A DNA stretch of 44,954 nucleotides from a virus, in IMG/VR virus record IMGVR_UViG_3300033051_000021, positions 1 to 44,954 of that record. One strand, given 5' to 3'. The position numbers and the translations under genes are program-made. Below, piece by piece: positions 5,561-32,056 of this stretch; within the stretch, counting starts at the first letter, position 1, and every line of letters begins with the position of its first letter. Below the pieces are notes generated by a model. That model searched no databases, was not told the DNA's origin, and saw only the letters and a list, made by a program, of their open reading frames with translations.

Positions 5561-5597
5561 AGTCTATAATAATAAAAAACACTAAGTGGTATGTGAA
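5561..5597 (-). promoter_or_regulatory. Four-copy promoter element, copy before parA
   Basis: On the minus strand, TTCACATACCACTTA (5597-5583) matches the element before the virion operons at 14 of 15 bases. Sixteen bases further downstream is TAGACT (5566-5561), a weak -10-like hexamer. The parA ATG lies 32 bases past that hexamer. The opposite flank contains an inverted half (CCACTTA at 5604-5610), giving a dyad TAAGTGG...CCACTTA around an A-rich centre, which occurs only at this copy. This could be the parA operator or centromere. Confidence 0.6.
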
Positions 5598-5620
5598 AAA
5601 CACCCACTTAAAATATGTTT

Positions 5621-6214
5621 TTACCACTTTCTTAAAGTTTTCCCTCGGGAAATTTCCTCGTGTGTAACTGTTGCATATCTTGCTGTAGTGCTTATGCTCT
5701 TGTGTCCTATATCTTGTCTTATATGCTCTAGCGATAAGCCTAGCTGATGAGCACTGGTGATGTAGCCTGCTCTAAAACTATGAGTAGAATATAAATTTCC
5801 CAACACTCTATGTATGAAAGAGTTCATGTTGAGCTTGAGAGCACTTACAGTCATCGGCTTGTCAGAGTTGTTTTTCGCAAAGAGATATCCATTGTCTAAA
5901 AACATCATTCTTCTTAACATCTCCACTTGAACACCATCACTATCGAAGCTAATGAGCCTTGTCGTTTTTGTCTTCGTGTCATTAGATAAGGAGTGCTCAT
6001 TTGTAAGTATCATCTGCACTACTTCCTCTTTCGTTACATCTATAATCTCGCTAATACGACACCCAGTGAGATACAGAAGTGTAAAAGCATTTTGCAGTTT
6101 TACTTTAGAACTCGCTTGTAGTGTTATACTCTTGTGCGCAGCATTCATAAGTCGCTCATACTCTTTTTTGAGGATCGGCTTTTTTGGTCGTGCTGTTCCT
6201 GTTGGTCTTGCCAT
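5621..6214 (-). CDS. Short tyrosine recombinase, catalytic domain only
   Basis: This 197-residue tyrosine recombinase reads directly into the catalytic fold. All the key residues are present: R53 (GCRISE), a Lys-rich beta-hairpin (K81/K83), H145-x-x-R148 (THSFRAG), H171 (IGHKS) and the nucleophile Y180 (TARYATV). The usual N-terminal core-binding SAM-like domain of phage integrases is missing, and the protein begins with a basic 'ARPTGTARPKKP' tail. With parAB next door, a role in resolving plasmid multimers is at least as likely as chromosomal integration. The start ATG overlaps the stop of a small upstream ORF (TAATG). The 3' end carries one copy of the TTTCCC palindrome. Confidence 0.88.
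   Translation of the reverse strand: MARPTGTARPKKPILKKEYERLMNAAHKSITLQASSKVKLQNAFTLLYLTGCRISEIIDVTKEEVVQMILTNEHSLSNDTKTKTTRLISFDSDGVQVEMLRRMMFLDNGYLFAKNNSDKPMTVSALKLNMNSFIHRVLGNLYSTHSFRAGYITSAHQLGLSLEHIRQDIGHKSISTTARYATVTHEEISRGKTLRKW
5639..5652. repeat. 14-bp palindrome TTTCCC-TC-GGGAAA, copy 2
   Basis: Exact copy in the last codons of the tyrosine recombinase gene, about 110 bases upstream of parA and close to the promoter element at 5561-5597. This is the copy nearest the partition operon. Confidence 0.7.
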
Positions 6215-6357
6215 TATGTTTCTCCATTTTCTATAAATTTTTTTACTTCTTCATAAGATACAATTTCGCCATTCTTTTTTGAGATATATCTTGTTCCATA
6301 AACAAATCCCACTTTCACGAAATGTTCACTGATAAAAAGTTTTCTTATCTCGTCCAA
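6214..6357 (-). CDS. Small hypothetical protein (47 aa), TTG start
   Basis: An open frame of 47 codons ends in a TAATG junction with the recombinase start. No ATG is available; the only useful start is a TTG at 6357, which overlaps the end of the upstream zinc-ribbon-like gene by 13 bases. The product is basic and mixed alpha/beta in look (FVKVGFVYGTRYISKKNGEI). No family is recognised. The coupling at its 3' end is the main support. Confidence 0.4.
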   Translation of the reverse strand: MDEIRKLFISEHFVKVGFVYGTRYISKKNGEIVSYEEVKKFIENGET

Positions 6358-6563
6358 TATTTCTCATTTTCTTCATCAAACTCTTCATTCCAAGTCTGGA
6401 TTCTCTGTTTATCACTACTGCACTCAGAACACATGAGATATTCTTTCTGCTCCTCAATCTCTGTATCGCTCAACTTAAATTTTGCCATCTCCTGGCACTC
6501 TATCTCTATCTGTCTAAGAGTCAAAATCTCTTTACAGTTCCAACATAATTTTTTTTCTTCCAC
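6345..6563 (-). CDS. Small zinc-ribbon-like protein
   Basis: Two CxxC pairs (CWNC near the N-terminus and CSEC about 35 residues on) suggest one structural zinc site. The region between them is helical and the C-terminus acidic. An ATG exists at 6590, but a GTG at 6563 is preferred because AAAAGGAG lies 6-13 bases upstream of it. From there the protein has 72 residues. Function is unknown; such proteins in phage early regions are often regulators or host-takeover factors. Confidence 0.55.
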   Translation of the reverse strand: MEEKKLCWNCKEILTLRQIEIECQEMAKFKLSDTEIEEQKEYLMCSECSSDKQRIQTWNEEFDEENEKYWTR

Positions 6564-6596
6564 TATTTCTCCTTTTTTAGTTATAATCACTCATTC

Positions 6597-6624
6597 GATT
6601 ATAAGTGCTTCAACACTTATAATC
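6597..6624. other. Intercistronic hairpin, 11-bp perfect stem
   Basis: GATTATAAGTG (6597-6607) and CACTTATAATC (6614-6624) are perfectly complementary around a 6-base loop. The hairpin lies between the 27-residue ORF and the zinc-ribbon-like gene. No U-tract follows on the minus strand, so it is more likely an RNA-processing or attenuation structure, or a protein-binding palindrome, than an intrinsic terminator. Confidence 0.5.
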
Positions 6625-6638
6625 TGATGAATTATTAT

Positions 6639-6722
6639 TTAAAATAATCTCTCAGCCCACTGTTCCATCTTGTGTTCAAACTTCTCGAACAGTGTGCTAC
6701 TCTTTTTTATAAATTTAGCCAT
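6639..6722 (-). CDS. Very small peptide (27 aa)
   Basis: ATG at 6722 is preceded by a full GGAGG ribosome site 9 bases upstream, located in the last codons of the gene before it. It reads 27 codons to TAA. The peptide is amphipathic and basic at the N-terminus (MAKFIKKSSTLFEKFEHKM...). No family is recognised. The strength of the ribosome site and the spacing support translation. Confidence 0.4.
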   Translation of the reverse strand: MAKFIKKSSTLFEKFEHKMEQWAERLF

Positions 6723-6724
6723 GA

Positions 6725-6916
6725 CTACTTACCTCCTGTATTTATTTTAGAATTTTTGATATATATATTTATACAAAAACTTTTGTCTATATTTTGCTCA
6801 CTAATGAACTCTCTCATCGTTGTCGTTCTCCCTTTGTCAAGCATTATCTGCTCAACTCTAAGAAAGGCTGCTACATCTTTTAGTGTTTTTTTACTTGCTG
6901 TATTATTTTTCATCAT
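6725..6916 (-). CDS. Small hypothetical protein (63 aa)
   Basis: Overlaps the end of the antirepressor gene by 14 bases. It is a basic N-terminal helical protein (TLKDVAAFLRVEQIMLDKG) that could be a small DNA-binding or scaffold-like regulator. I cannot assign a family. Its last codons hold the ribosome site for the 27-residue peptide. Confidence 0.5.
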   Translation of the reverse strand: MMKNNTASKKTLKDVAAFLRVEQIMLDKGRTTTMREFISEQNIDKSFCINIYIKNSKINTGGK

Positions 6917-7634: not shown

Positions 7635-7650
7635 ATTTTACATTCCTTTT

Positions 7651-7755
7651 ATAATCTTTCTTATATGAAAGTATTATTTCATAATCTTGCCATAGTGAAA
7701 CTTAATAACATATTAAAATCTTTCTTATTCACAATATCTTAATGCATTATCTTGC
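7651..7755. promoter_or_regulatory. Operator-like array of four phased repeats
   Basis: Between divergent genes, a short sequence recurs: ATAATCTTTCTTAT (7651), ATAATCTTGCCATA (7681), AAAATCTTTCTTAT (7715) and ATTATCTTGC (7746). Start-to-start distances are 30, 34 and 31 bases, about three helical turns. The first two also share GAAA at the same offset. This is the expected architecture for cooperative regulator binding, perhaps by the CI-like repressor or the small protein at 7786. A perfect TTATTCACA (DnaA-box consensus) overlaps the third copy. Confidence 0.55.
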
Positions 7756-7780
7756 AAAATAGGAGCTTTTTCGTTACTAT
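7752..7780 (+). promoter_or_regulatory. Possible promoter for the 7786 gene
   Basis: TTGCAA (7752-7757) and TACTAT (7775-7780) are separated by 17 bases. Transcription would start at or next to the ATG at 7786, giving a leaderless message; no ribosome site is evident at normal spacing. Assignment is from sequence match only. Confidence 0.3.
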
Positions 7781-7785
7781 TATGC

Positions 7786-7989
7786 ATGAAAATAGAAAAA
7801 CTAACAATTAAAGACATATCAAATTTTATAGACAAAAACGAGAACACTATTAGTGGATGGAGCACGAAACAACCGAAACTACTAGAAATAGTAAAACTCG
7901 GTGCATTCTGCAAAAAAAACGATTTAGATATAGAAAAAATAACTAAGCTGCTTGAAGTCCAAGAAGCTGTTAGAGGGGTTGAGTCATGA
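7786..7989 (+). CDS. Small HTH-like protein
   Basis: A 67-residue protein whose 'IKDISNFIDKNENTISGWSTKQPKLLEIVKLGAFCKKN' stretch has the spacing of a Cro/CI-type helix-turn-helix (recognition helix near 'NTISGWS'). It is the first gene rightward of the phased repeat array and opposite the antirepressor, the usual place of a Cro-like regulator. It overlaps the next gene by 4 bases (ATGA). The family assignment is tentative. Confidence 0.6.
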   Translation: MKIEKLTIKDISNFIDKNENTISGWSTKQPKLLEIVKLGAFCKKNDLDIEKITKLLEVQEAVRGVES

Positions 7990-8607: not shown

Positions 8608-8796
8608 CTGAATATATTTTACAAAAACATTAAGTTTTAACCATAGAAACTCTTTAGGCATACAAATGTATGTCTAGCACAGACAAAAGCCCTCACAGAG
8701 CCTCCTACAGCCATACAAATACCACAAAAACACCACAAACAAGCAAAAAAATCCCCCGAACCGACGAGCCGCACCTTTCCACCACCACCACAAAAC

Positions 8797-8819
8797 TCGC
8801 CGCCATTTGAAAATTTTTT
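8797..8819 (+). repeat. Left arm of 23-bp perfect inverted repeat
   Basis: Perfect reverse complement of 9544-9566, 724 bases apart. It contains CCGCCATTTG, the complement of the motif CAAATGGCGG, which also occurs at 10571 and 10921. Both arms run outward into a G-rich then T-rich stretch when read from the AT side. It may be an initiator-binding or recombination site, or the trace of an inverted duplication. Confidence 0.75.
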
Positions 8820-9543
8820 GGCTCTTTTTTGGTTATTTCGGTTTTTATGAGTATGAAAGATTTTTTTGAGATAGCTATTATATAAAAGAGTTGAACTTCA
8901 AAGGATTTGAGAGTTTGACTCCGTGAGAACTCTGTTTTTACGGAGGGAATTAGTAAGTGAGTTGGTTTTTTGGAGATTTTCCGTAGGTTTCGGATTTCGG
9001 ATTAGCGTTTATTTTTCTTAGAGTTGATGGAACTGCATCATTTTTATGACATGATGAGTGGTCCTCAACTTTTTTAGCACTCTCGGGAAAATTGGTCGAG
9101 GTGGTCTAAACATATTTATTTATTTATTTTAATATATTTATTTTAAGGTGGGAGTGCAAATGTTTAAGTTTAGTCCACTCTTTAAGGTTTAAGCCTTATT
9201 TTAGTGGAATATGGCTTAAGGTTAGAGCTTATGAGGTCGTTTATGTGATAGTGTGAGTGATTTGTCGAAGTGCTTGCTCTTTCTGCAGTAGGTTAATGGT
9301 GTAGTAGGTTAATGGTGCTTATTATGTGGTGGTGGATTGCTATTTGATAGTAGATGTTGGTGTCGTGCTTTTTCTCGTTTATGTTCTGTATGAGCGGTGG
9401 GGAGGGTACTTCCCCAAGTGTACTTCTGTCTGAACTACATATGAGAGAAGTGCTAGATGAAAATTCATATTTGAGTTGTAAGTTCACAAAAGAGCGTTAT
9501 TTCTTAAAGCCTGAAAGTAAGTTTCTCAAGATCACTTTTTCAT

Positions 9544-9566
9544 AAAAAATTTTCAAATGGCGGCGA
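9544..9566 (-). repeat. Right arm of 23-bp perfect inverted repeat
   Basis: Reverse complement of 8797-8819. It includes CAAATGGCGGCGA at 9554-9566, one of four copies of that 13-base motif (one copy with a single change) between 8.8 and 10.95 kb. It is followed directly by the G9/T9 homopolymer region. Confidence 0.75.
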
Positions 9567-9577
9567 CTTATCGCAAT

Positions 9578-9600
9578 GGGGGGGGGTCGTATTTTTTTTT
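9578..9600. repeat. Homopolymer tracts G9 and T9
   Basis: Nine consecutive G (9578-9586) and nine T (9592-9600) in an AT-rich genome. A 27-codon frame (ATG 9557, TAG 9638-9640) runs through the tract. Poly-G tracts of this length are slippage-prone and are used for phase variation in Campylobacterota, but no substantial gene is attached here. Confidence 0.6.
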
Positions 9601-9780: not shown

Positions 9781-9795
9781 TCTATATATAATACC

Positions 9796-10245: not shown

Positions 10246-10271
10246 TTAATATCCTTTAATAGTTTGATTCC

Positions 10272-10292
10272 TATTGACATAATCACTCAATA
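10272..10292. promoter_or_regulatory. Operator-like dyad over the rightward promoter
   Basis: TATTGA (10272-10277) and TCAATA (10287-10292) form an inverted repeat with a 9-base centre that overlaps the -35 hexamer and spacer of the promoter at 10274-10302. This is where a CI-like repressor would act. Binding by the 9838-10245 product is inference. Confidence 0.5.
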
Positions 10293-10302
10293 AGTATATA
10301 AT
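10274..10302 (+). promoter_or_regulatory. Consensus sigma70 promoter of the replication operon
   Basis: TTGACA (10274-10279), 17-base spacer, TATAAT (10297-10302): a full match to the bacterial housekeeping consensus. It would drive the rightward genes from 10354 and leave a leader of about 45 bases. Confidence 0.8.
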
Positions 10303-10353
10303 TGCAACTATATTTATATATTATACAACAAATGACACATTAGGGGCTTAAAC

Positions 10354-11235: not shown

Positions 11236-11682
11236 ATGATTCGCTTTCTTGATGGACTTGTTTTACTTAAAGAACTTGATGATATTTCGGGTGCAAAAAC
11301 ATTATCATATAAATTAAGAAAACAGCACAATGAATCCATAGTTACAATTAATCGAACAGCATATATTTACAGATACTTGCTTGATGAAGAAACTCAAAAA
11401 ATAGTAACTAACTTGGATGATTATGTTCAAGTTGGTGTTCTTGCAGATAAAATATCTACAGATAGACTCAATATAAAAAAACGGATAAAACTCATGAAAG
11501 CTAATCCACAACTAAATCTTTTTGAGTATTTAGAAGTTGCTGGTCAGTACTTTATTAAAATGGATGCAGAACTTAAATACTTACTTACTTACTTTCAGCC
11601 ATTTAGCGCAACTCTAATAGAATTATCAAAACCAGATATTAAATTAAAAATGCTTGGCGATTTCAGAATAGGATTTTACTAA
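11236..11682 (+). CDS. Hypothetical protein in replication operon (148 aa)
   Basis: Starts 2 bases after the initiator-like gene and ends on the start of the next (TAATG). It is mixed alpha/beta with a basic 'TDRLNIKKRIKLMKANPQ' segment that could be a DNA-contacting helix pair (about 75-95). No family is recognised. Placement between an initiator-like gene and a DnaB-like helicase suggests a replication or regulatory accessory role. Confidence 0.65.
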   Translation: MIRFLDGLVLLKELDDISGAKTLSYKLRKQHNESIVTINRTAYIYRYLLDEETQKIVTNLDDYVQVGVLADKISTDRLNIKKRIKLMKANPQLNLFEYLEVAGQYFIKMDAELKYLLTYFQPFSATLIELSKPDIKLKMLGDFRIGFY

Positions 11683-11870
11683 TGAGCAATATTGACTGGC
11701 TAAACACCGACACTTTAGCTATTGAGTTTGGAATAGCTAAAAGCACTCAAGCAAAATATCGTAGTGAAAAAACTATACCATACTCTAAGGTGGGCGGCTT
11801 TATATACTACTCAAGAAAGAAAATAAACGCATGGATAGAGAGCCATAGCTTTGAAGCAGAGGGAGCTTAA
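11682..11870 (+). CDS. Small HTH protein (excisionase/AlpA-like)
   Basis: This 62-residue protein has 'LNTDTLAIEFGIAKSTQAKYRSEKTIPYSKVGGFIYYSRKKINAWIES', which has the classic HTH_17/excisionase layout: DNA-reading helix, 'IPYSKVGGFIYY' wing, and helix to the end. It is coupled to both neighbours. It may be the directionality factor for the tyrosine recombinase or a regulator of the operon. Confidence 0.7.
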   Translation: MSNIDWLNTDTLAIEFGIAKSTQAKYRSEKTIPYSKVGGFIYYSRKKINAWIESHSFEAEGA

Positions 11871-13240: not shown

Positions 13241-13254
13241 TTTCCCTCGGGAAA
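13241..13254. repeat. 14-bp palindrome TTTCCC-TC-GGGAAA, copy 3
   Basis: The only exact copy lying between genes, 18 bases after the helicase stop codon and before the small basic ORF. Confidence 0.7.
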
Positions 13255-13274: not shown

Positions 13275-13346
13275 ATGATTGCAACACAGAAAAAAAAGTT
13301 AAGAAAAAAAAGAAAAGCTAGACTAGAAAAAGGAGATGTAACATGA
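13275..13346 (+). CDS. Tiny basic peptide (23 aa)
   Basis: An ATG at 13275 has an AAAGGA ribosome site 8-10 bases upstream and reads 23 codons to a TGA that overlaps the next start (ATGA). About half the residues are Lys or Arg (QKKKLRKKRKARLEK). It may be a leader peptide or a nucleic-acid-binding peptide; coupling to the Tad2-like gene is the main support. Confidence 0.4.
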   Translation: MIATQKKKLRKKRKARLEKGDVT

Positions 13347-13762
13347 AACAGTTTATTGGAACAAAGATTGTAAAAGCAAAAGTTATGAATAGATTAGATT
13401 ATAATTTATTTAGAGGATGGAAATTGCCAGATGATGAAAATGGTTCAGATGATGGATATTTAGTTGAATACTTAGATGGTGGAGAGCCAAACACTAAAGA
13501 ATATAATGGATATGTCTCATGGAGTCCTAAAGAGCAGTTTGAAAATGCTTATAAAGAGAGTGGTAACTTATCGTTTGGAGATGCAATTACATATTTGAAA
13601 CAAGGTAAAAAAGTTACTAGAAAAATATGGAATGGTAAAAAGATGTTTCTATTTTATGTTCCATCAAGTTCTTATATTGCAATGAAAACTACACAAGACA
13701 ATGTAGTCCCGTGGTTAGCAAGTCAAATAGATATGTTAAGTGATGATTGGGAGGTCCTATAA
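13343..13762 (+). CDS. Tad2-like anti-Thoeris protein fused to N4 gp49/Sf6 gp66-like domain
   Basis: This 139-residue protein has two parts. Residues 1-70 ('FIGTKIVKAKVMNR ... GYVSWSPKEQFENAY') follow the N4 Gp49/Sf6 Gp66 phage family. Residues 75-139 ('LSFGDAITYLKQGKKVTRKIWNG', 'FLFYVPSS', then 'VPWLASQIDMLSDDWEVL') match the DUF2829/Tad2 pattern from start to end. Tad2 proteins are known to bind and sequester the cyclic ADP-ribose-type signal made by Thoeris, blocking that defence. Both domains are complete and the C-terminus ends in the family's typical 'DWEV'. It is placed among replication genes, so it would be expressed early, as needed for an anti-defence protein. The function in this phage is inferred from the family. 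Confidence 0.75.
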   Translation: MKQFIGTKIVKAKVMNRLDYNLFRGWKLPDDENGSDDGYLVEYLDGGEPNTKEYNGYVSWSPKEQFENAYKESGNLSFGDAITYLKQGKKVTRKIWNGKKMFLFYVPSSSYIAMKTTQDNVVPWLASQIDMLSDDWEVL

Positions 13763-14328: not shown

Positions 14329-15885
14329 ATGAGTGAAATAAAAAAAGCATTAGCAAAGAAAAAAGCGGAACCTGTTGTTCTTGCTCTTGCTAAGAAGTCA
14401 TTGCTACACTATGTTCGTTATATGTTTGAGGAGTATCACGAGGTTACTTTTCTTGAAGCGTGGTATCACGAGCTACTTTGCAACGCTTTAATGAAAGTGC
14501 TTACCGGAGAAACTACACGACTCATAATAAACATACCCCCATCTTATGGAAAAACGGAACTTGCGGTAAAGGCTTTAATATCTTGGGCTTTAGGAAACAA
14601 TCCTTGGATGCGATTTATATACGCTTCGTACTCAAACGAGTTAGCAACTGAAACCCCTGCAGATGTAAAAAGTATGATAACTTCTAACGCTTATAAAAAA
14701 GTGTTCGGAGAAAAGAAGCTTAACAAAACTGCCGACCAAAAATGGTACTTAGATAAAAATGGAAAAAAAGATGGCGGTATGTTCTCGACTACTATCGCTG
14801 GCGGCGTAACTGGTTTTCACTCTGACATACTTATCATAGATGACCCTATGAAAGCTTTTGACAAGAACTCAAAGGCTGCGAGAGATGATACCATTCGGTT
14901 TTATACCGGTACTGCGAGTACACGACTAAGAAAGTCAAATCCTAACCCTGCCATTATAGTCATTATGCAGCGGCTTCACGAGAAAGATTTGGTAGGCTAT
15001 CTGCTTGATGAAGAGCCAGACTTATGGACACACATAAATCTTACAGGTATAGAGCCTAGAGAGACTATTTATGAGTTTTTTGATTTTTATTATAAACGAG
15101 AATCACATGAACCACTTAATCCACTCTTTGAAAATAGAGAAGCTTTAGAGACTCAAAAAGAGGTAATGAAAGAGGACTGGTACTCTCAGTATATGCAGGA
15201 CCCTCGAACAATAGAAACCGGTTACGTCAAAGATGAAGACTTTACGACTATTGCATCGTGGGAGCTTACAGATGATAATAAGTGCATAAGCATAGACCCT
15301 GCTCAAAGCACTAAAGAGACAGCCGATAATAGAGCAATATCTGTAGTGGGTGTTGCTCTAAGCATAGAAAAAACAGAACTATTTAATGTGTATGGTACTT
15401 GGTTCGGTGTTTGGGGCAATGAAGAGTTTATAAATAAAATAATAGAAATTATGATAGCAAACAATAGTGTACCTGTATTCATGGAGTCAAGCGGTGGGGG
15501 GATAATTACAGAGCAGTATCTGAAAAAGAGAATAGCAGTTGTAAACTTAGAACTCAAAAAAGCAGGACAACCCATGCTTACAAATAGGATTACCCTCTTT
15601 AATCCAAAAACAAAGATAAGCAAAAACCAAAAAATAGACCAGAGTATCACCTACTTAAAAAACCATCAAATAAGACTTGTTAATGGCGGAGCAGGACAAG
15701 AACAAGTAAGAACCGAGTACAAAGGTTTTCATCCTGAAAAAGACTCCAAAGAAGATGACTGCATGGAAACTATCGCGAATGTGGTAGTAAACGACTTTGT
15801 ATCTCCTAAAATAATAAAAGATATGAACACTATAAAAATTCAAAAACATTCTCATAAACAGAGATTTGGAAAGTTTAGAATTTAA
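14329..15885 (+). CDS. terL: Terminase large subunit
   Basis: This 518-residue DNA-packaging motor and nuclease has an ATPase domain with Walker A in 'NIPPSYGKTE' (G74-K75-T76). The Walker B acidic pair D171-D172 follows the strand 'SDILII', and 'VIMQRLHEKDLVGYLL' fits the coupling region. The nuclease domain starts with the metal-binding D323 in 'ISIDPAQS' and continues through 'VFMESSGGG' and the 'EDDCMETIANVV' segment near the end. The pattern matches the phage TerL group with 'PP..GK(S/T)E' P-loops. It starts 3 bases after the SSB-like gene, but the small-subunit candidate lies at the far end of the window (44286-44954). Confidence 0.93.
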   Translation: MSEIKKALAKKKAEPVVLALAKKSLLHYVRYMFEEYHEVTFLEAWYHELLCNALMKVLTGETTRLIINIPPSYGKTELAVKALISWALGNNPWMRFIYASYSNELATETPADVKSMITSNAYKKVFGEKKLNKTADQKWYLDKNGKKDGGMFSTTIAGGVTGFHSDILIIDDPMKAFDKNSKAARDDTIRFYTGTASTRLRKSNPNPAIIVIMQRLHEKDLVGYLLDEEPDLWTHINLTGIEPRETIYEFFDFYYKRESHEPLNPLFENREALETQKEVMKEDWYSQYMQDPRTIETGYVKDEDFTTIASWELTDDNKCISIDPAQSTKETADNRAISVVGVALSIEKTELFNVYGTWFGVWGNEEFINKIIEIMIANNSVPVFMESSGGGIITEQYLKKRIAVVNLELKKAGQPMLTNRITLFNPKTKISKNQKIDQSITYLKNHQIRLVNGGAGQEQVRTEYKGFHPEKDSKEDDCMETIANVVVNDFVSPKIIKDMNTIKIQKHSHKQRFGKFRI

Positions 15886-15895
15886 ACATTATAAA

Positions 15896-15932
15896 TCCAC
15901 ATACCACTTACATACTTTTTTATGGTTAATAT
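15896..15932 (+). promoter_or_regulatory. Four-copy promoter element, copy before fibre operon
   Basis: TCCACATACCACTTA (15896-15910), 16-base spacer, TAATAT (15927-15932); the ATG of the next gene is 25 bases on. A 39-base block including this copy (15884-15922) recurs at 25101-25139 with one change. Confidence 0.7.
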
Positions 15933-15956: not shown

Positions 15957-16472
15957 ATGAGGAAAGTAAGACTAGATGTTTCAAAGTTTGGATTAGTTGT
16001 TGGTGCAAAAATAAAACTTGAACTTATAAATAGTATTGGTAAACTACAAGCAACCACAAGTGGTTACAGTCTTGATAAAAGTATAATAATAGAAAACATT
16101 ACCATCATCGAAGTAAAATTACTTGAAAGTGATTTGGTAGACTTTCTCCACTTCTATAAAATAACACTCAATAGCGAACTAAGTTTTACTTTTAGAGTTC
16201 CCACTAATGATGATTCCTCCACTCACGACCTAATATCACTCTTTAAACTCTCTTGTTATAAAGGGATAATCAATCAGGATAATAAATCACTCTCCCCACT
16301 ATTTACTAAAAAACTAGACTTTTATTTCTCGGGGGAAAATCCACACTTTACAAAAGTAGAAAAAGATATCGTGCAATTATATGAATACTACGCGAATGAT
16401 GTAATAAATGGCACAGCAACAATAGACATCATGAAAATGATGGATCAATATTTATCAAAAATAGGATTTTAA
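15957..16472 (+). CDS. Virion-associated hypothetical protein (171 aa)
   Basis: First gene of the virion block after the shared promoter element. It is beta-rich in its first half ('LVVGAKIKLELINSIGKLQATTSGYSLDKSIIIENITIIEVKLLESD'), resembling small tail adaptor domains, and helical at the end. It precedes the coiled-coil fibre gene by one base. I recognise no family; a tail-fibre attachment role is inference from position. Confidence 0.55.
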   Translation: MRKVRLDVSKFGLVVGAKIKLELINSIGKLQATTSGYSLDKSIIIENITIIEVKLLESDLVDFLHFYKITLNSELSFTFRVPTNDDSSTHDLISLFKLSCYKGIINQDNKSLSPLFTKKLDFYFSGENPHFTKVEKDIVQLYEYYANDVINGTATIDIMKMMDQYLSKIGF

Positions 16473-17526: not shown

Positions 17527-19047
17527 ATGGGTTTAAAAAGCACAAGAGATACACTTGTCAGTAGGATTGAAGAAGTTGCTGGCACAAGTACAGACCTTGA
17601 ACAGTTAAGCTTTGCAGGGGCAAGCTTACAAAAATTAGTCGATATCAACTTTGATATTTTACCAGAAGATACAGCATACAATATAGGTGTTCCAGGAACA
17701 ATGGGATATGGTGTATCTGCAATGCACGATGAGTTAGTTCCAGCTGGGTATATGAAACTATCTAGTCATGATGATGTTGCTCATCCAAATTATGGTTGTG
17801 TGATAGATTTGAATGGAAGTGTATTTGAGTATATTGCTCCTTTTTTCTTCAAAATGATTGGAAATAGTATTACTACTAGCCCTATATATGTAAGTGGATA
17901 TGTAAAACCTCGTGCTTTTTACGACTCGCCAAATGGATTTTTACACTTTAAATACATGGCTGGTAATGTTGGTGGAAAACTTGTTTCTAAACAAAATATC
18001 GACCCAGTATCAACATCAACTTCACATAACCCTATTGGGAATCTATTATCTGCTCCATCAAATAATTATGGTGGATTTGTTGATGCTTGTAAATCAGCAG
18101 GCTACAAAGCAACTACTATATTTGAATGGACTGCACTACAACTTTTAGCACTTGCTCAGTCGCAAAGTGGTGCATCTTCTGCACTATGTGCATTTAATGA
18201 TGTTGCACCATTTTTTCCAAAAGGAAATCTTGGAAATGCTTTACACGATGTAAATGATACAAGTGTAACTTTTACCGGTAGCGGCTATTCAAACTGTGCT
18301 TTGACAGGTAGTGGTTCAAACTTTGCAAAGACAACACACAATGGTCAGAACTCCGGTATAGCAGATATGAACGGAAATATGTGGAAGATTGTAACAGGAC
18401 TTACATACTTAGCAAAAAATAATGCGACTTGTGCAATAAATACAAAAGATGTATCTATGCCTAGCCACGGTTTAGCAATTAATGATGTAATTTACTTCGG
18501 TGGTACACCATCTAGTGGCTCTACTTATAACACTGCTGCTTATACAGTAACCGCAGTAACTGATGGCAATAACTTTACAGTAGGAACTGTACTTCAAAGA
18601 GCTATCGTGTCTACTGACGGAGTTTATAGTTCAAGATATTTCAGAATTTTAAAAACTTCTGTGAATCCACATGATCTTACAAGTGTAAATCTACTTGATG
18701 ATTCTAAATATGATTTGCTAAATCTTACTGGAATGATTGATTCAAATACTGGAAGTACTTATTTTGGGAATGGAGCAGAGACTGTTCTTAACTTTTCTAC
18801 AGATACAAATTCAATAGCATACAAAGCTGGAAGTGTTGGAATTCCAACTCCAACAGGAACAAGTGCATCTGGAGCTACTATATTTGGGAATGACTATATT
18901 TACAAATATATGAGACATGGTCTCGTGCCGCTTGTCGGTGGGGGTTGGAATAACACTTCCACTGCTGGGGTTTTCGCTCTTAATTTGCACAATTATTCGG
19001 CTACTTCGAACTACAATGTTGGTGGTTTCGCCTCTGTTTCCTTGTAG
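17527..19047 (+). CDS. DGR target: variable receptor-binding protein, FGE/C-type-lectin-like fold
   Basis: A 506-residue virion protein whose last about 40 codons are the variable region of a diversity-generating retroelement. The fold markers of formylglycine-generating-enzyme/C-type-lectin-like DGR targets are visible: 'GIADMNGNMWKIVTGL' (about 276-291) and the C-terminal 'VGGGWNNTSTAGVFALNL...VGGF'. Between them lies an inserted beta-rich domain with 'PSHGLAINDVIYFGG ... VTDGNNFTV' (about 315-360). The N-terminus (1-60) is helical and probably anchors the protein to the fibre. Seven codons in the variable region correspond to adenine-containing template codons (six differ from Asn or Ile, one from Asp). 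It likely decides host receptor choice. Ribosome site AAGGAG is 7-8 bases before the ATG. Confidence 0.9.
   Translation: MGLKSTRDTLVSRIEEVAGTSTDLEQLSFAGASLQKLVDINFDILPEDTAYNIGVPGTMGYGVSAMHDELVPAGYMKLSSHDDVAHPNYGCVIDLNGSVFEYIAPFFFKMIGNSITTSPIYVSGYVKPRAFYDSPNGFLHFKYMAGNVGGKLVSKQNIDPVSTSTSHNPIGNLLSAPSNNYGGFVDACKSAGYKATTIFEWTALQLLALAQSQSGASSALCAFNDVAPFFPKGNLGNALHDVNDTSVTFTGSGYSNCALTGSGSNFAKTTHNGQNSGIADMNGNMWKIVTGLTYLAKNNATCAINTKDVSMPSHGLAINDVIYFGGTPSSGSTYNTAAYTVTAVTDGNNFTVGTVLQRAIVSTDGVYSSRYFRILKTSVNPHDLTSVNLLDDSKYDLLNLTGMIDSNTGSTYFGNGAETVLNFSTDTNSIAYKAGSVGIPTPTGTSASGATIFGNDYIYKYMRHGLVPLVGGGWNNTSTAGVFALNLHNYSATSNYNVGGFASVSL
18920..19033 (+). repeat. DGR variable repeat (VR)
   Basis: 114 bases aligned without gaps to the template repeat 19498-19611. 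There are eight differences, all at template adenines: five A to C, two A to G, one A to T. None of the 88 non-adenine positions differs. The VR lies at the 3' end of the variable protein gene and the identity stops 12 bases before the stop codon. Confidence 0.95.
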
Positions 19048-19055
19048 TAGGGAAC
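19036..19055 (+). other. Hairpin directly after VR
   Basis: GTTTCC (19036-19041) can pair with GGGAAC (19050-19055), with one G-T pair, around an 8-base loop that holds the stop codon. A hairpin or cruciform just 3' of VR is a known helper of mutagenic homing in DGRs. The match here is short. Confidence 0.35.
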
Positions 19056-19059
19056 GATA

Positions 19060-19464
19060 GTGAACGGGGTAAGCAAAGGTGAAGTTTCTTTAAATAGAAA
19101 GTTTGTGGAAATGATGAAGTTACTTAATGTGTATCTCAATCATTTTCCACGATATGAAAAATTTGCACTCTCTAATGATATACGAAATACAGCTTACAGA
19201 GTGTATGACTTAATAACAGAGTGCCAAAAGAGATACTATAAAAAGAGTTCACTTACTTCTCTTGATATAGAACACGAGAAGCTTAGAATGCAGATAATCC
19301 TAGCGAACGAACTCGGATATTTTGCATTTAAAGATGGTTCTAAAAACTCTAAACTTGCACGACCTGAACATAGATTTTTAGCTATCTCTCAACTTATTGA
19401 TGAGATAGGTAGGATTATAGGTGCTTGGATAAACAAGCTAAGAAAGACAAACGAGTTTACATAA
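19060..19464 (+). CDS. avd: DGR accessory variability determinant (Avd)
   Basis: A 134-residue basic, all-helical protein starting at GTG, 12 bases after the target gene. Size, position between VR and TR, and the helical pattern ('FVEMMKLLNVYLNHFPRYEKFALSNDIRNTAYRVYDLITECQK') match the Avd four-helix bundle. Avd forms a pentamer that binds the reverse transcriptase and the template RNA and is needed for retrohoming. Confidence 0.88.
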   Translation: MNGVSKGEVSLNRKFVEMMKLLNVYLNHFPRYEKFALSNDIRNTAYRVYDLITECQKRYYKKSSLTSLDIEHEKLRMQIILANELGYFAFKDGSKNSKLARPEHRFLAISQLIDEIGRIIGAWINKLRKTNEFT

Positions 19465-19497
19465 AACTCAATGGGCTACTGCATTAACATGATTTGT

Positions 19498-19611
19498 GTC
19501 TCGTGCCGATTGTCGGTGGGAATTGGAATAACACTTCCAATGCTGGGGTTTTCGCTCTTAATTTGAACAATTATTCGGCTAATTCGAACAACAATGTTGG
19601 TGGTTTCGACT
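19498..19611 (+). repeat. DGR template repeat (TR)
   Basis: Partner of VR 18920-19033. Twenty-six adenines are present; eight (19509, 19521, 19522, 19540, 19566, 19582, 19590, 19609) differ in VR. Read in the VR frame, the template has Asn codons (AAT/AAC) at most variable positions, the usual DGR design that permits many residues but avoids stops. The flanks (19465-19497 and 19612-19706) are non-coding and should be part of the template RNA transcribed with avd and rt. Confidence 0.95.
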
Positions 19612-19706
19612 TCGTTCTAACCTGAAATATCTTAAAGATAAAATTGGAACAAAGGGATGTAGAGTCCAGCTATAAGCGAAATTTTAAAGAGGAGATTTGT
19701 TAGAGT

Positions 19707-20753
19707 ATGAGAAATATTAAGTATGGACTAGAAATTCCAAATACCTCGAAAAGATACGGTGGACTGTACCAGCTTGCTTTTACAAAAGAGAACCTTTACA
19801 AAGCTTATTTAGAAGCTAGAAAGGGTAAGAGAAATAAGGTTGGTACATATTTATTTGAAAAAAACATAGGTGAAAACATTGATAACTTATTTGAAGAGTT
19901 ACAGTGTTTTTCATATAAGCCTAGAGAGTATAGAACTTTTACAGTTTATGAACCAAAAGAGAGAGTTATTAAGGCACCTCATTTTAGAGATTTAGTAGTG
20001 CAGCACTCTATTTATAGAGTGATTTATAATATTTTCAATAAGTCATTTATAGATACTAGCTTTGCTTGTAGGAAAAATGGTGGAACTCATAAGTGTAGTG
20101 TTTATACCCAGACTCAGATGAAGAAATATAATGGAAATCTTTACTTTATCAAGCTTGATATTAGAAAGTTTTTTTACTCTATAGATAGAGGAATACTTAG
20201 AAAGTTATTTGAGAAGAAAATAAAAGATAAACAAATGATAGACATTATGACTCTGTTTACAGAAGATGATAGTTCTAGTGTTGGCATACCAATTGGTAAT
20301 CTTTTAAGTCAGCTATATTCTCTCATATATCTTAACGAGTTGGATCACTTTGTAAAAAGAGAACTTAAAATAAAAAGCTATGTTCGTTACGTAGATGATT
20401 TTGTGCTCATCGGTCTCACTCTTGATGAAGCAAAAATAGCAAAAGAGAAGTGTGAGAAGTTTGTACAGGACAAATTAAATCTTGAATTATCTCATTGGCA
20501 TATACAGAAGATAAAAAGAGGTATTAACTTTGTCGGATATAGGACATGGAAAAATGTAAAGTTTGTTAGAAAGCACTCTTTATACAAGTTCAAAAGAGCA
20601 ACAAAAAAACAAAAGGTCGATTCGATTATATCTTTAATCGGTCATGCAAAAGGTACAAAAAGTTTGAGTTATTTCAAAAATATACTTGAAAACTATATGC
20701 CTTATTATAAAAATTTAATACCGACTAGGAGTCGAAAATGTTTAGATATGTAA
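19707..20753 (+). CDS. DGR reverse transcriptase
   Basis: A 348-residue group-II-intron-like reverse transcriptase. The catalytic Y228-V-D-D231 is in 'YVRYVDDFVLIG'; motif 4 reads 'GIPIGNLLSQ' (about 193-202), the DGR-type variant; 'YFIKLDIRKFFYSIDR' is motif A. The RT-1/2 region 'KERVIKAPHFRDLVVQHSIY' is clear. There is no endonuclease or maturase domain. It copies TR RNA with adenine-specific errors and, with Avd, replaces VR. The gene overlaps the next by 16 bases. Confidence 0.95.
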   Translation: MRNIKYGLEIPNTSKRYGGLYQLAFTKENLYKAYLEARKGKRNKVGTYLFEKNIGENIDNLFEELQCFSYKPREYRTFTVYEPKERVIKAPHFRDLVVQHSIYRVIYNIFNKSFIDTSFACRKNGGTHKCSVYTQTQMKKYNGNLYFIKLDIRKFFYSIDRGILRKLFEKKIKDKQMIDIMTLFTEDDSSSVGIPIGNLLSQLYSLIYLNELDHFVKRELKIKSYVRYVDDFVLIGLTLDEAKIAKEKCEKFVQDKLNLELSHWHIQKIKRGINFVGYRTWKNVKFVRKHSLYKFKRATKKQKVDSIISLIGHAKGTKSLSYFKNILENYMPYYKNLIPTRSRKCLDM

Positions 20754-25025: not shown

Positions 25026-25112
25026 TAATCCAGAAATCTCTCATACCTTTTCTACTATGCAAAGAGCCAAAAACTTCTCAGTAATTTAACTAGAAATCAT
25101 AAACATTATAAA

Positions 25113-25149
25113 TCCACATACCACTTACATGCTTTTTTAGGACTAGAAT
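25113..25149 (+). promoter_or_regulatory. Four-copy promoter element, copy before capsid operon
   Basis: TCCACATACCACTTA (25113-25127), 16-base spacer, TAGAAT (25144-25149); an overlapping TATAAT lies at 25153-25158. The next ATG is 32 bases past the first hexamer. Shares a 39-base block with the 15884-15922 copy. Confidence 0.7.
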
Positions 25150-25180: not shown

Positions 25181-25942
25181 ATGGGAAATGAAAAAAAAGA
25201 GGGTGTAGTGAAACAGCTTGAAGATATGTTAGGTCTTGGTGAAGATACATCTACTGTAGATAATGTACAAACTAAAGAAGCGACTCCTAAAGATGGCGAA
25301 GCATCTAAAGAAGATACTTCTAAAGATACTCTAGCACAAACTCCAAACACTACAGTTGTGACAGATGAACAAGTGCTCATCACAAAAGATATAGCAAAGA
25401 TAGACTTGCAGATAGAAGCACTAGAATCTGAAACTGTAGATACTGATAAATTCTTTGAAAACATCGAAGAGAACTTAAGTGAAGAGGAGCAGACACTAGA
25501 ACATAGTGATAGACCTGCATATATGAAACTCATCAACACTAAGGCAAAAGAGTACGAAGAGAGCAACTCAAATGCTCAAGCAATTCAAACACTTAAAAAT
25601 GAGAAGCAGGAGAAAGAGTCTGTTTATGAGAGACAGAGTGCTATCACGGAAGTTATAGCAAAGTACCCATCTTATAAACATGAAGATGTTTTAGAGTTCT
25701 TTCAAAAAGAGCTATCTGAAACACAACAACAAAAGATAATTGACTCTTCTTCCTCTTATTCTGATGTTTACGAGGGTGCATACAAGAAGTTTTTAGAATT
25801 AAACCCATCAAACATTGAAACACAAGCTGTTACACATTTACCAAATATGAATAATATCAGAAAACAACTGTTAAAAACTTCTGATGTTGAGGACTCACTT
25901 CAAGATGATGATGATAAAATTCGAGAAGCTTTAGGGCTTTAA
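25181..25942 (+). CDS. Scaffold-like acidic coiled-coil protein (253 aa)
   Basis: Acidic and helical from end to end: Asp/Glu/Thr-rich disordered N-terminus (about 15-65), central coiled coil (about 66-150, 'TKDIAKIDLQIEALESETVDT...'), helical C-terminus with 'DKIREALGL' at the end. It is placed two genes before the major capsid gene, the usual position of a capsid scaffolding protein. No protease signature is seen. The role is inferred from composition and position. Confidence 0.6.
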   Translation: MGNEKKEGVVKQLEDMLGLGEDTSTVDNVQTKEATPKDGEASKEDTSKDTLAQTPNTTVVTDEQVLITKDIAKIDLQIEALESETVDTDKFFENIEENLSEEEQTLEHSDRPAYMKLINTKAKEYEESNSNAQAIQTLKNEKQEKESVYERQSAITEVIAKYPSYKHEDVLEFFQKELSETQQQKIIDSSSSYSDVYEGAYKKFLELNPSNIETQAVTHLPNMNNIRKQLLKTSDVEDSLQDDDDKIREALGL

Positions 25943-26353: not shown

Positions 26354-27511
26354 ATGAGTGTATTTAATGGAATGTCTGCAACGGATTTTTTATCTGATGC
26401 TGCTACAAAAGTAGGTTATTCAAAAGAGATAACAAAACAGGCAATGGCAAAGAGTAAAATCAAGCCATTTATAGCAAGAAGTACTAACGATATGACTTCT
26501 ATCATTAAGTCACATACAAAGACTTGTGAACAAGGCAACATAGTTTCTATTGCTCTTGCAGATGAACTTGTAGAGTCTGGTGCTACTGGTAATGTAACTC
26601 TTGACGCGAGTAGTGAAGAGCTTAAAGAGATTAAGCAATTTATCAAAGTTGATTCTTATCAGCATACTGTTCCCTCTACTGGAAATGTGGTTACACAAAG
26701 AAGTGCTAATGATTTTAAATCTAAGGCGAAATCTGCACTGACAAACTGGGAAACTAGAAAATTCGATAGAACTTTCTTCCATTTAATGAGTGCTGATTGT
26801 ACGAACATTGTTGCTTGTGGACATCACTTAGATGCTACTACTGCAAAGATAGCGACAGCAGATGTTTTAACAACTTCGGATGTTGAAGAAGCAAAAAGAA
26901 GAGCTGAATTAGGTATTGATGCTAAAGGTAATGGTGTTCCACCTCTCATTCCTATTCATACATCTACAAATGAGAACCTTGGTTACTATGAAGATGTTGA
27001 GTATTTTGTGATGCTTGTTGGGACAAACTCTGCTCGTAACATCAAAACAGACCCTAACTGGGCAGCCGCTCGTAAAGATGCTACCGAGAGAGGAAAAACA
27101 AATCCTATCTTTACTGGTGCACTCGGGTTCTGGGATGGTGTACTTCTACTTCCAGCTAAAACAGACACAGAGCGAAACTCTGGTATTTTAACTTCTAAGT
27201 CGAACTTCAAAGGTTTTGGTAGTGTTAAGAAGTCTGATCTTTCTATCTATGCTGGTATTTCTGGACAAGAGACAGAAATCAACCTTTTCTTAGGTGCTGG
27301 TGCAGCTCAAATCGTTGTAGATATGGGTATTAGCTACTATGACTATGCAGCTAAAGATGATGTTCGTAGAATGGTTGCGGCAGTTGATAGAGTGTTTGGC
27401 ATGGCAAAGACTAAGTTTAGTGCAAGTGCAAATGATGGAATCCTTCAAGATAGTATCTTTGATGGTAAAGACTATGGTGTTATCGCAGTTGTAGCATCAA
27501 CTGGAAAATAA
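26354..27511 (+). CDS. Major capsid protein, N4-gp56-type
   Basis: A 385-residue HK97-fold-like major capsid protein. The N-terminal 'ATDFLSDAATKVGYSKEITKQAMAKSKIKPFI' helix region, the 'VSIALADELVESGATGNVTLD' strand and the 'QRSANDFKSKAKSALTNWETRKFDRTFFHLMS' helix follow the N4 gp56 family, as do later 'YFVMLVGTNSARNIKTDPNWAAARKDA' and 'NPIFTGALGFWDGVLLLP'. It packs the phage head. It is separated from the genes before by a structured leader and should be the most strongly expressed gene. Confidence 0.85.
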   Translation: MSVFNGMSATDFLSDAATKVGYSKEITKQAMAKSKIKPFIARSTNDMTSIIKSHTKTCEQGNIVSIALADELVESGATGNVTLDASSEELKEIKQFIKVDSYQHTVPSTGNVVTQRSANDFKSKAKSALTNWETRKFDRTFFHLMSADCTNIVACGHHLDATTAKIATADVLTTSDVEEAKRRAELGIDAKGNGVPPLIPIHTSTNENLGYYEDVEYFVMLVGTNSARNIKTDPNWAAARKDATERGKTNPIFTGALGFWDGVLLLPAKTDTERNSGILTSKSNFKGFGSVKKSDLSIYAGISGQETEINLFLGAGAAQIVVDMGISYYDYAAKDDVRRMVAAVDRVFGMAKTKFSASANDGILQDSIFDGKDYGVIAVVASTGK

Positions 27512-27932: not shown

Positions 27933-27941
27933 GTCTATATC

Positions 27942-28286: not shown

Positions 28287-28288
28287 AC

Positions 28289-28873: not shown

Positions 28874-28876
28874 GTT

Positions 28877-29155: not shown

Positions 29156-29164
29156 AGAGTAGTT

Positions 29165-31036
29165 ATGTTTGAAACTACTACACTCCTCCGAGAATGGTTA
29201 AGAGAGTCTGCTCGACATTTTAAAGATACGAAAGCTTTTAGTAAAAAGGCAAGAGACTATAGAAATGGGGAGCAGCTTGATGACTTCATAAAAACAGTTC
29301 TAGCGAATCGTGGACAGCCTGAGCAGTATGAGAACCAGATAGCAAAACATAACAACTCCATACTCGGATATAAAAAAGAGCGAGAGATAGACATAAGACT
29401 TTTTGGTAGACAACAAGCTGATAGAGCCACAGCAAATATGCTCAACTCAATCATAAAAGCCATCACTCAAGTGAGCGACTATGAGAGTGAAGTTGAAGCC
29501 CTTGATGATGAGTTATCACTAGAGGGTGTAGCCATTGCAGAACTTACTATAACTGCTAGTGGAGAGTTTGATGAGTTTGGTAGAGAGCATAAAGACGTGG
29601 AAGTTACACAAGTTCCAGAAAAAGAGATGTTTCTTGACCCATTTTCCCGAGGGAAAAACTACAATAAAGACGCTCGTTATATTAGCAGATGTTTTTGGAT
29701 AGATAAAGAGGACCTTTACGGACTAGGCTTTGATGAAAAAAAGATAGAAGAGTGTAGTAACTCAAACTACTTAGCTGACATACTCGATAATGACCTCTAT
29801 GCTGATGAGACTATAAGAAAAAGAGTCTTACTCTCTTACACTTGGTATAGAAAGTATGACAAAGTTGCAAAAGAAGAGAAGTTTTACTTTGTGTTTTGGA
29901 GCGGAGAAACTATTTTGATGCAAGGTGAGTCTCCTTTTAACTTCAAAGGTTTTCCTTATGAAGTAGAGTTTTTAAACAGAGACTTTACTGCTAAGATAAA
30001 GTACTGGGGGCTTTATAAAGACATACTCCCTCTACAGGATCACATAAACTATGCGAAGTTGAGAATGCAAAATATGCTTGCAAACAACAAAACGCTTGTA
30101 GAAAAAAATGCAATTATAGACAATGACATAGAAGCTTTTAGAGACGAGTTCTCACCTGATGATGCAATTGTACTGGTAGAGAATCTTAATGGAATAAAAG
30201 ATGTAAGACAAAATGCACAGATACAGCAGATACTAAACATAATAGTCGATAACAGAAATCAGATAAGAGACTTACTAGGCACAAATGATGAGATGCAAGG
30301 TGTAGCTAACAATAGAATGAGCGGTGTAGGACAAGAGCAGAGAATCCAAACAGCACTCGTAGGTCACTCTCATTTTATGGGAAGCAGTGACAAACTTCAA
30401 AAGCATATCGTCAAGAAAATGGTAAAGTTCATAGAACAGTACTATGACTCTCAAAGAGTTGTGAGCATAATAGACGAAGACTATATGCAGTCCTACATCA
30501 CTATGAACGAGAGTGTGAAGAATGACTATGGAAGTGTAGACTTTGAAGTGCTGGCAAATGGAAAAGTAAAACCAATCGCTAACAATACAATAGCAGTTGG
30601 AAAGTATGATTTAATCTTCTCTGCAAAACCTAAGAGCAAGTCTATGAGTTCTGAGCGACTTAGGCAAAATGTAGAGCTACTAAAAGTGCTTCAAAGTACA
30701 AACCCTGAACTTGTGCAGTATTTAGTGCCTGACATATTAAGAGATAGTGATTCGCCAAGCGCTTTAAAGATAAGACAAATCATAGAACAAAATGAAGCTA
30801 GTGCTAAGGACTCGCCACAAGCACAGGCTATTCAGAAGTTGCAAGAAGCAAACCAACAGTTAGAGATGAGGCTCAAAGGCTCACAAGTAAATCTCAATGA
30901 CGCTAAGGCTAAATCAATGATAGACAAAAACAAGATAGACCTGCAAAAAGCCTTTAGCACTTCTCTTATAGCTAAAGATGCAAACAGAGCTAAACACAAT
31001 AAAAATCAACTAGATGCAATGAAAGGAGTGAGATAA
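29165..31036 (+). CDS. Portal protein
   Basis: This 623-residue podovirus-type portal would form the dodecameric DNA gate. Helical N-terminus (about 1-110) with 'YRNGEQLDDFIKTVLANRGQPEQYENQI'; stem and wing region with 'GVAIAELTITASGEFDEFGREHKDVEVTQVPEKEMFLDPFSRG' (about 120-165), where portals define the residue pattern 'P....DP'; central 'PLQDHINYAKLRMQNMLANNK' clip or stem helix; C-terminal helical barrel with a Gln/Lys-rich tail. It carries one TTTCCC palindrome copy (29643-29656). Confidence 0.85.
   Translation: MFETTTLLREWLRESARHFKDTKAFSKKARDYRNGEQLDDFIKTVLANRGQPEQYENQIAKHNNSILGYKKEREIDIRLFGRQQADRATANMLNSIIKAITQVSDYESEVEALDDELSLEGVAIAELTITASGEFDEFGREHKDVEVTQVPEKEMFLDPFSRGKNYNKDARYISRCFWIDKEDLYGLGFDEKKIEECSNSNYLADILDNDLYADETIRKRVLLSYTWYRKYDKVAKEEKFYFVFWSGETILMQGESPFNFKGFPYEVEFLNRDFTAKIKYWGLYKDILPLQDHINYAKLRMQNMLANNKTLVEKNAIIDNDIEAFRDEFSPDDAIVLVENLNGIKDVRQNAQIQQILNIIVDNRNQIRDLLGTNDEMQGVANNRMSGVGQEQRIQTALVGHSHFMGSSDKLQKHIVKKMVKFIEQYYDSQRVVSIIDEDYMQSYITMNESVKNDYGSVDFEVLANGKVKPIANNTIAVGKYDLIFSAKPKSKSMSSERLRQNVELLKVLQSTNPELVQYLVPDILRDSDSPSALKIRQIIEQNEASAKDSPQAQAIQKLQEANQQLEMRLKGSQVNLNDAKAKSMIDKNKIDLQKAFSTSLIAKDANRAKHNKNQLDAMKGVR
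29643..29656. repeat. 14-bp palindrome TTTCCC-GA-GGGAAA, copy 4
   Basis: Exact copy inside the portal gene, read there as codons for S-R-G-K. The two arms are identical to those of the other copies. Confidence 0.7.
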
Positions 31037-32019
31037 TGGGATGGTATGATGCTTTTAAGAGTAATGTTGATTCTACTGCTTCAATAAACAAGATAACAAG
31101 TAATAGTGGGAGTGCAGGAAAATACTTTGGAGATGCCTTTAAAGATTTTGGTAAATCTTTACAAGACTCTGAAAATCAAAAGATAAAAGATGACGTTGCC
31201 GATGCAAATATAAAAGCATCTCAAGCTCATACCGCTCTGTACACTGCTCAGAACACTCAGGCTGCGATAGATAATGAGTTTAACAATAACAAGAGAAAAG
31301 ACCAGGCAGAGACTAAGAAACTAGATGATGCTTTTAAGAGAGACTTTGCAAGTACAAGTGACATCAACTACCAAAAATCTCTCTTAGAATTCGAGAAGCC
31401 AGATGGTGAGTTTGACTCATCTGTATCAAGCAGTGCATTTGAGTATGCAAGTAAAAAGATAGCAAGTGATGAACTCTCAGCTCAAAAGAACTTTAACGAT
31501 GAAGCTGTCAAAGTTTCTGTCGATGGCGGGTATGCTGACTTCTCAGCATTTAAAACTGCAAATGCTGACTCTCAACTTTTTAAAAACACTGATGGCACAA
31601 CTATGAAGTCTATAGAGAAGTATTTTAATGATAAAGACAGTACGCTTAAAGATATAAAAACTCAACAAAAACTTCTTGCTAAAGACAAGCAAATAAGTGC
31701 TCTTGCTGGTTCTAAGAAAAATAAAGGTTTTGTATATGATGAGAATACAGATACAAAAATAGCAGCACAGGTAAAGACTGCTATGGGTATGGATGCTCCA
31801 AACTTTAACTTTGATGACACCACAAAAGTTGCTTTTCAAAATGCTGTAGCTGGCTCTGCAAAAATATCTAAAAAGTATAATCTTGAACCCTCTTTAGCTA
31901 TTCATGTTTATCAAAATCCAGATATGTATGACTTTACAGCAGATAATAAAGTGATACAGAAAAAGAGTCCAAAAAAGGCAGAGAACAAAGACCGTCTAAA
32001 TATATTCAAAAGGTCTTAA
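31036..32019 (+). CDS. Internal virion / ejection-like protein (327 aa)
   Basis: Shares one base with the portal stop. Ala/Lys/Asp/Ser-rich, helical, with long amphipathic stretches ('SQAHTALYTAQNTQAAIDNEFNNNKRKDQAETKKLDDAFKRDF') and a basic end. Composition and place between the portal and the giant polyvalent gene fit an internal protein ejected with DNA. No family is recognised. Confidence 0.55.
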   Translation: MGWYDAFKSNVDSTASINKITSNSGSAGKYFGDAFKDFGKSLQDSENQKIKDDVADANIKASQAHTALYTAQNTQAAIDNEFNNNKRKDQAETKKLDDAFKRDFASTSDINYQKSLLEFEKPDGEFDSSVSSSAFEYASKKIASDELSAQKNFNDEAVKVSVDGGYADFSAFKTANADSQLFKNTDGTTMKSIEKYFNDKDSTLKDIKTQQKLLAKDKQISALAGSKKNKGFVYDENTDTKIAAQVKTAMGMDAPNFNFDDTTKVAFQNAVAGSAKISKKYNLEPSLAIHVYQNPDMYDFTADNKVIQKKSPKKAENKDRLNIFKRS

Positions 32020-32056
32020 TCCACATACCACTTAGGGCTTTTATATTAGCTAATAT
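32020..32056 (+). promoter_or_regulatory. Four-copy promoter element, copy before giant gene
   Basis: TCCACATACCACTTA (32020-32034), 16-base spacer, TAATAT (32051-32056). It begins at the stop codon of the gene before. The ATG of the giant gene is 30 bases on. Confidence 0.7.

Follow-up and report, generated by a model that had tools for sequence, protein, structure and literature searches.

Class II promoters of the CRP type carry a two-fold activator site of 22 bp, centred near -41.5 and overlapping the -35 region, with a -35 that is weak or absent. At the middle promoters of phage T4 (MotA box, AsiA), a box for a phage activator replaces the -35 and lies 12 ± 1 bp from a retained sigma-70 -10 (PMC2988021). 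Sigma-70 promoters of Campylobacter jejuni and Helicobacter pylori read gnTAnaAT and have no -35 sequence (PMC3847290), and dispersed centromeres are reported for N15, RK2 and pSM19035 (PMC3235114). We analysed an IMG/VR virus record of 44,954 bases (IMGVR_UViG_3300033051_000021; hereafter, the window), in which a 15-mer, TCCACATACCACTTA, precedes four operons, among them the partition genes parAB and the virion blocks. Our comparisons suggest that the 15-mer makes up the promoter-proximal side of a 28-bp site through which a phage-encoded, probably dimeric regulator would activate the four operons, a reading that we consider likely, if well short of assured. We found no earlier account of a late-promoter class for Campylobacterota phages in the open-licence papers searched on Helicobacter and vent Campylobacterota phages.

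The T4 middle promoters are the nearest functional parallel, in that a host -10 is kept and a phage box stands at a fixed (in T4, nearly fixed) distance in place of the -35. However, a monomer reads the MotA box, which measures about 10 bp and has its centre at -30, whereas the element described here is 28 bp, partly dyadic, centred at about -42.5 and separated from the -10 by exactly 16 bases (N16). Moreover, the probable host has no -35 to displace. Common descent is not claimed. As in CRP-type class II promoters, a two-fold site near -41.5 overlaps the -35 region, but it spans 28 bp rather than 22, and its distal half is AAAACT in two of the copies (late1 and scaffold, see below).

The 28-bp element and its distance to the -10

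The 15-mer is exact at 15896, 25113 and 32020 (plus strand) and has one change at 5597-5583 (minus strand), and in all four cases exactly 16 bases separate it from a -10-like hexamer (TAATAT, TAGAAT, TAATAT and TAGACT, respectively), just as the original prediction had described. The start codon follows after a short gap, as was also claimed, but this measures 24-31 bases rather than 25-32. The near-identical block of some 39 bases noted for two of the copies extends over 40 bases (15883-15922 and 25100-25139), with one base different. The 15-mer forms the right part of the 28-bp element, which covers positions -56 to -29, numbered from the -10 and not from mapped starts:

15883..15910, plus strand, 28-bp element TAAACATTATAAATCCACATACCACTTA of the post-terminase operon (late1), kept at the equivalent place in 21 relatives (records)
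15927..15932, plus strand, -10 hexamer TAATAT, N16 from the late1 element
25100..25127, plus strand, 28-bp element of the scaffold/capsid operon
25144..25149, plus strand, -10 hexamer TAGAAT, N16 from the scaffold/capsid element
32007..32034, plus strand, 28-bp element CAAAAGGTCTTAATCCACATACCACTTA of the giant open reading frame (ORF) of 4066 amino acids (aa)
32051..32056, plus strand, -10 hexamer TAATAT, N16 from the giant-gene element
5583..5610, minus strand, 28-bp full dyad TAAGTGG-N14-CCACTTA before the parA-parB-dnaG operon, a dyad geometry common to 11 parA promoters
5561..5566, minus strand, -10 hexamer TAGACT, N16 from the parA element

Scanning the window for the 15-mer with up to 3 mismatches gave 5 matches (1.24 expected), the fifth of which, at 5112 with 3 mismatches, lies within parA and has no -10. 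With a 50-column matrix from which the window and its near-identical contig had been left out, the four sites scored 21.0-30.7 bits and 20 random windows at most 9.2 bits; the next match in the window reached 6.4 bits, in agreement with the claim that it contains no further copy.

Relatives, most of them metagenome fragments, were gathered by terminase, by first late gene and by ParB. The near-identical contigs L007-L012 and L026 stem from the same population of phage and do not enter the independent counts; the only exception is two G002 rows, which were counted but excluded from the within/between-genome test described below. A search of related phage genomes, as had been suggested with the original prediction, found the element and its N16 spacing kept at equivalent promoters: 49 promoters from 23 related Campylobacterales phage records, upstream of parA and of the genes equivalent to those at 15957, 25181 and 32086, share the 28-bp element, exactly 16 bases and TANNNT. 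The element mostly starts with TAA and finishes with TTA, and 49/49 promoters have A at its positions 3 and 28. The host-type -10, TANNNT, is likewise kept in 49/49 listed sites, the low-scoring ones among which had been picked using the N16 rule. Because of this selection, we retested the spacing without the rule in 11 genomes, obtaining TANNNT at exactly N16 in 24/24 CCACTTA copies upstream of these genes, as compared with 4/63 copies elsewhere; two of these four, found in G006 and, ahead of the giant gene, in G019, themselves look like additional promoters. Megablast of 10 kb of the window against deposited phages gave no match. A pattern scan of a viral collection, not retained, mixed true relatives with unrelated contigs that matched by chance within genes, and a profile search of viral contigs with terminase alignment A1 returned mostly distant phages and was set aside, unused.

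The host is probably a member of Campylobacterota, as suggested by a primase with the PF16730 helicase-binding domain, by best plasmid ParB matches from Aliarcobacter butzleri, by best terminase matches among deposited phages from Helicobacter, and by Campylobacterales genomes (one of them Sulfurimonas) that harbour relatives whose terminase is 68-70% identical. Since C. jejuni and H. pylori lack a -35 in their sigma-70 promoters, the conserved block at this position would not be a host element, and a phage box becomes visible by comparison alone. The original prediction had offered either an activator or an alternative sigma factor as reader. Fixed spacing, conservation and co-variation (see below) argue for an activator acting on a promoter element specific to the phage, and the sigma version found no support. 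A phage sigma factor using the element as its -35 would explain CCACTTA at that place and its strict distance from the -10; however, none of the window proteins scanned, with several small ORFs outside the scan, matched a sigma family, the -10 remains host-like, and a conserved, partly dyadic stretch of 28 bp is too long for a -35. We regard this explanation as very improbable.

Box agreement within phages and symmetry of the element

The box varies between phages yet agrees across the operons of each one. Mismatches in the right 11-mer amounted to 1.1 within a genome, as compared with 4.1 after label shuffling, and 0/5000 shuffles were as low. The G018 prophage, for instance, carries ATACCACTTA at all four promoters. 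ATAGTTA or GTAGTTA replaces CCACTTA at the parA promoters of L245 (G023), whose record does not reach its late promoters, and L262. From the ATAGTTA-type parA box of G026 we predicted its late promoters ahead of fetching them, and both (late1 and scaffold) read GAGCGTATAGTTA-N16-TANNNT. Because the box varies between phages, the regulator would be phage-encoded, and because it nevertheless agrees across the operons of one phage, a single such reader would serve all four promoters. Regulator and sites appear to drift together within each phage, providing a set of naturally different specificities.

The genes around the elements are as follows:

4909..5529, minus strand, parA, 206 aa, PHROG 164
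3804..4931, minus strand, parB, 375 aa, with ParB_N and a helix-turn-helix (HTH)
994..2598, minus strand, dnaG primase, downstream in the direction of parA
5621..6214, minus strand, tyrosine-recombinase-like protein of 197 aa, its 3' end abutting the parA element
15957..16472, plus strand, first gene of the late1 operon, conserved
25181..25942, plus strand, first gene of the capsid operon, in a scaffold-like position from which its role is taken
26354-27511, major head protein
32086..44286, plus strand, giant ORF of 4066 aa, with its own (third) late element

The parA element is the dyad TAAGTGG-N14-CCACTTA, and between 4 and 7 of the 7 bases are symmetric in all 11 parA copies. Its half-sites lie 21 bp apart from centre to centre, equivalent to two helical turns, and would therefore fit a dimer on one face of the DNA. 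The giant-gene element is in part such a dyad, and the post-terminase and scaffold elements have AAAACT as left arm in place of the dyad arm (Mann-Whitney p 5e-9). An inverted half-site had been attributed to the parA copy alone; within the window it is indeed complete only there, but the giant-gene copy of L008, a near-identical contig, also carries it, reading TAAGAGGTATG-N6-CATACCACTTA. TATAAT is the -10 in 5/11 parA promoters and 0/38 elsewhere (Fisher p 0.0002). From this hint of a stronger -10 at parA we drew no conclusion, since any base is permitted at the third position of the host consensus.

When divided as 11+6+11, the arms are symmetric at up to 10 of 11 positions in parA copies and poorly so in late copies. 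The parA dyad could then be a Xer-like recombination site of the 197-aa tyrosine recombinase, with the late copies as related half-sites, as the TAAGTGGTATG-N6-CATACCACTTA geometry and the directly adjoining recombinase gene would suggest. However, the copies are locked to the -10, the distance between recombinases does not track the box (r -0.22), and the integrated G018 relative keeps the recombinase-parA junction intact while having a different, broken integrase at its end. A recombination site seems to us extremely improbable.

Under the activation reading, the regulator would bind from -56 to -29, a site whose right half, CCACTTA, fills the -35 region. The centre of the site, at about -42.5, corresponds to a class II activator position, from which the regulator would bring the host sigma-70 RNA polymerase to a host-type -10 situated 16 bp away. 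The operons served would be parA-parB-dnaG, post-terminase, scaffold/capsid and that of the giant protein. Induction would switch on the virion blocks together with the partition and DNA-copying genes, which makes sense because the parA-parB-...-dnaG operon includes a replication gene. Through the element, the partition and primase genes would join the virion regulon.

Repression through the same site is the main rival. A phage protein covering -56 to -29 would then keep the virion operons off, and tune the par operon, in the lysogen; the right half-site overlaps a stretch that RNA polymerase must cover, the complete parA dyads look like autoregulated operators, and the -10 fits the host consensus TAnaAT in many copies. 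However, shutting parAB off in the lysogen would be awkward, the element is absent from the CI-like repressor gene and from the early promoter that diverges from it (10246-10353), and the strict -10 spacing in every copy suits activation better. We thus infer activation rather than repression, and consider a repressor operator unlikely, although deserving serious thought. One small regulator might also combine both roles: bound at the virion promoters it would activate, and on the complete parA dyad it would repress (or act as an early switch), exchanging partition for particle production in one step; specificity of the reader drifting with its promoters would then generate orthogonal late-promoter systems in one clade. 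This is a speculative proposal that we hold to be rather unlikely.

ParB and a separate palindrome

The other reading in the original prediction, that dispersed 15-mer copies are ParB sites and allow the partition protein to keep late genes silent in the lysogen, is not supported by the comparisons. In its favour are the copy that controls parAB, the dispersed centromeres reported for N15, RK2 and pSM19035 (PMC3235114), and KorB, the ParB of RK2, which doubles as a global repressor. However, the ParB helix stays constant where the box differs: ParB of G023 is 81% identical to that of the window and has the same HTH helix, KSQSYLSKAF, with boxes ATAGTTA and CCACTTA, respectively. ParB distance does not track box distance (Mantel r 0.06), and phages outside the clade with ParB 52-58% identical, which are also without a terminase of this type, have no box at parA. 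Besides, a separate palindrome, TTTCCCGMGGGAAA, behaves as a ParB site, occurring near parB with or without the box. ParB is strongly disfavoured as reader of the 28-mer, and silencing of late genes by ParB through the 15-mer is hardly credible. No box was present in the 400 bases upstream of parB in the Aliarcobacter plasmid L052 (ParB 45% identical).

The palindrome emerged without prior assumption, as TTTCCCGCGGGAAA, as common to the outside-clade ParB loci, in most of which it lies near parB; in loci of the clade, dnaG and the 3' terminus of the recombinase gene contain it. The window contains five perfect copies and one degenerate copy of TTTCCCGMGGGAAA over 1.6-42.3 kb, against 0.15 expected, and complete relatives have four to six copies each. 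Like ParB and KorB operators, TTTCCCGMGGGAAA is a palindrome with closely spaced half-sites, unlike the 28-mer, with half-sites 14 bp apart and no dyad in the late1 and scaffold copies. TTTCCCGMGGGAAA is likely to be parS, the site bound by ParB, with these candidate copies:

1625..1638, TTTCCCGAGGGAAA, in dnaG
5639..5652, 3' terminus of the recombinase gene, some 30 bp away from the parA element
13241..13254, after the helicase gene
16325..16338, degenerate copy, TTTCTCGGGGGAAA
29643..29656, in the portal gene
42296..42309, in the giant ORF

Because the dispersed TTTCCCGMGGGAAA is likely parS, this phage probably has N15-like dispersed centromeres, distinct from the late-promoter element; the suggestion of such centromeres was thus probably right for this phage, but the sequence concerned is TTTCCCGMGGGAAA and not the 15-mer. 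As with the partition sites of KorB/RK2 and N15, several sites are spread over the genome, a role played here by TTTCCCGMGGGAAA, whereas the 15-mer lacks abutting palindromic half-sites, appears independent of ParB and is locked to a -10. Telling the element apart from the likely parS copies opens both systems to direct tests. ParB proteins of this group have a conserved N-terminal half and a very variable C-terminal part, which ends in a conserved YKITIEEI-like motif (3804-4931 in the window).

Candidate regulators and neighbouring features

The reader is probably one of three proteins encoded in the window:

7786..7989, plus strand, gp7786, helical HTH protein of 67 aa, candidate reader whose divergence tracks the box
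11236..11682, plus strand, gp11236, tandem winged-HTH protein of 148 aa with a CheQ-like predicted fold, candidate reader
11682..11870, plus strand, gp11682, HTH_17 protein of 62 aa overlapping gp11236, candidate partner or reader

Divergence of gp7786 tracks the right 11-mer (Mantel r 0.50; two runs gave p 0.0005 and 0.0012); it was the best of 16 proteins in the first run, and the only tested protein with clear tracking. Additionally, the window and G017 have the same gp7786 helix, NENTISGWSTKQP, and an identical 11-mer. A fold search with its model (pLDDT, the predicted local distance difference test, of 85) gave generic HTH matches only, none significant. All related records checked have gp11236 and gp11682 wherever they cover these genes. 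The gp11236 model (pLDDT 93) best matched, over its whole length, the C. jejuni CheQ/CheP entry 6a51 of the PDB (E 1e-5, probability 1.0). CheP and CheQ are described as a dedicated pair of regulators for cheVAW transcription (PMC9665402). The likeness is one of predicted fold: gp11236 shows 17% identity and had no match by sequence profile among solved structures.

Several observations weigh against a regulator of this kind. The gp7786 gene is missing from G010, G018, G019 and G027, which do carry boxes; these four encode a different HTH protein of about 70 aa, at the same place in the three inspected and weakly similar to gp7786 by profile (probability 38). G025 has the gp7786 helix of G026 but not its box, and distances of gp11236 and gp11682 do not track the box. 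Sited between replication genes, gp11236 could be a replication protein, and a repressor could have the same site geometry.

Two unlike types of HTH protein of about 70 aa replace each other at a single syntenic position, with the repressor on one side of it and the antirepressor/recombinase region on the other (7786-7989 in the window, 4048-4269 in L142, 16730-16942 in L326 and 13539-13790 in L319). Nearby, about 776 bp without conserved genes (8794-9569) lie between the arms of a 26-nucleotide inverted repeat, the core of which, CAAATGGCGGCGA, occurs four times (8797, minus strand; 9554, 10571 and 10921, plus strand); an Rfam search of the window, this region included, gave no match. A protein with a Tad2-like (Thoeris anti-defence) domain is encoded before the terminase (13343-13762). 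The late1 operon includes a diversity-generating retroelement (17527-20753) with Avd (19060-19464), a reverse transcriptase (19707-20753) and, ahead of Avd, an ORF for its probable variable protein (17527-19047). At the end of the window, the ORF at 44286-44954 is similar to a gene that neighbours the terminase in L146; it may encode the small subunit of terminase, whose large subunit lies far away. The G018 relative is an integrated prophage beside tRNA-Met (L331, 4222-4298; L333, contig 177211-178193), with a separate, frameshifted integrase at its other end and with parAB and the 197-aa recombinase kept inside.

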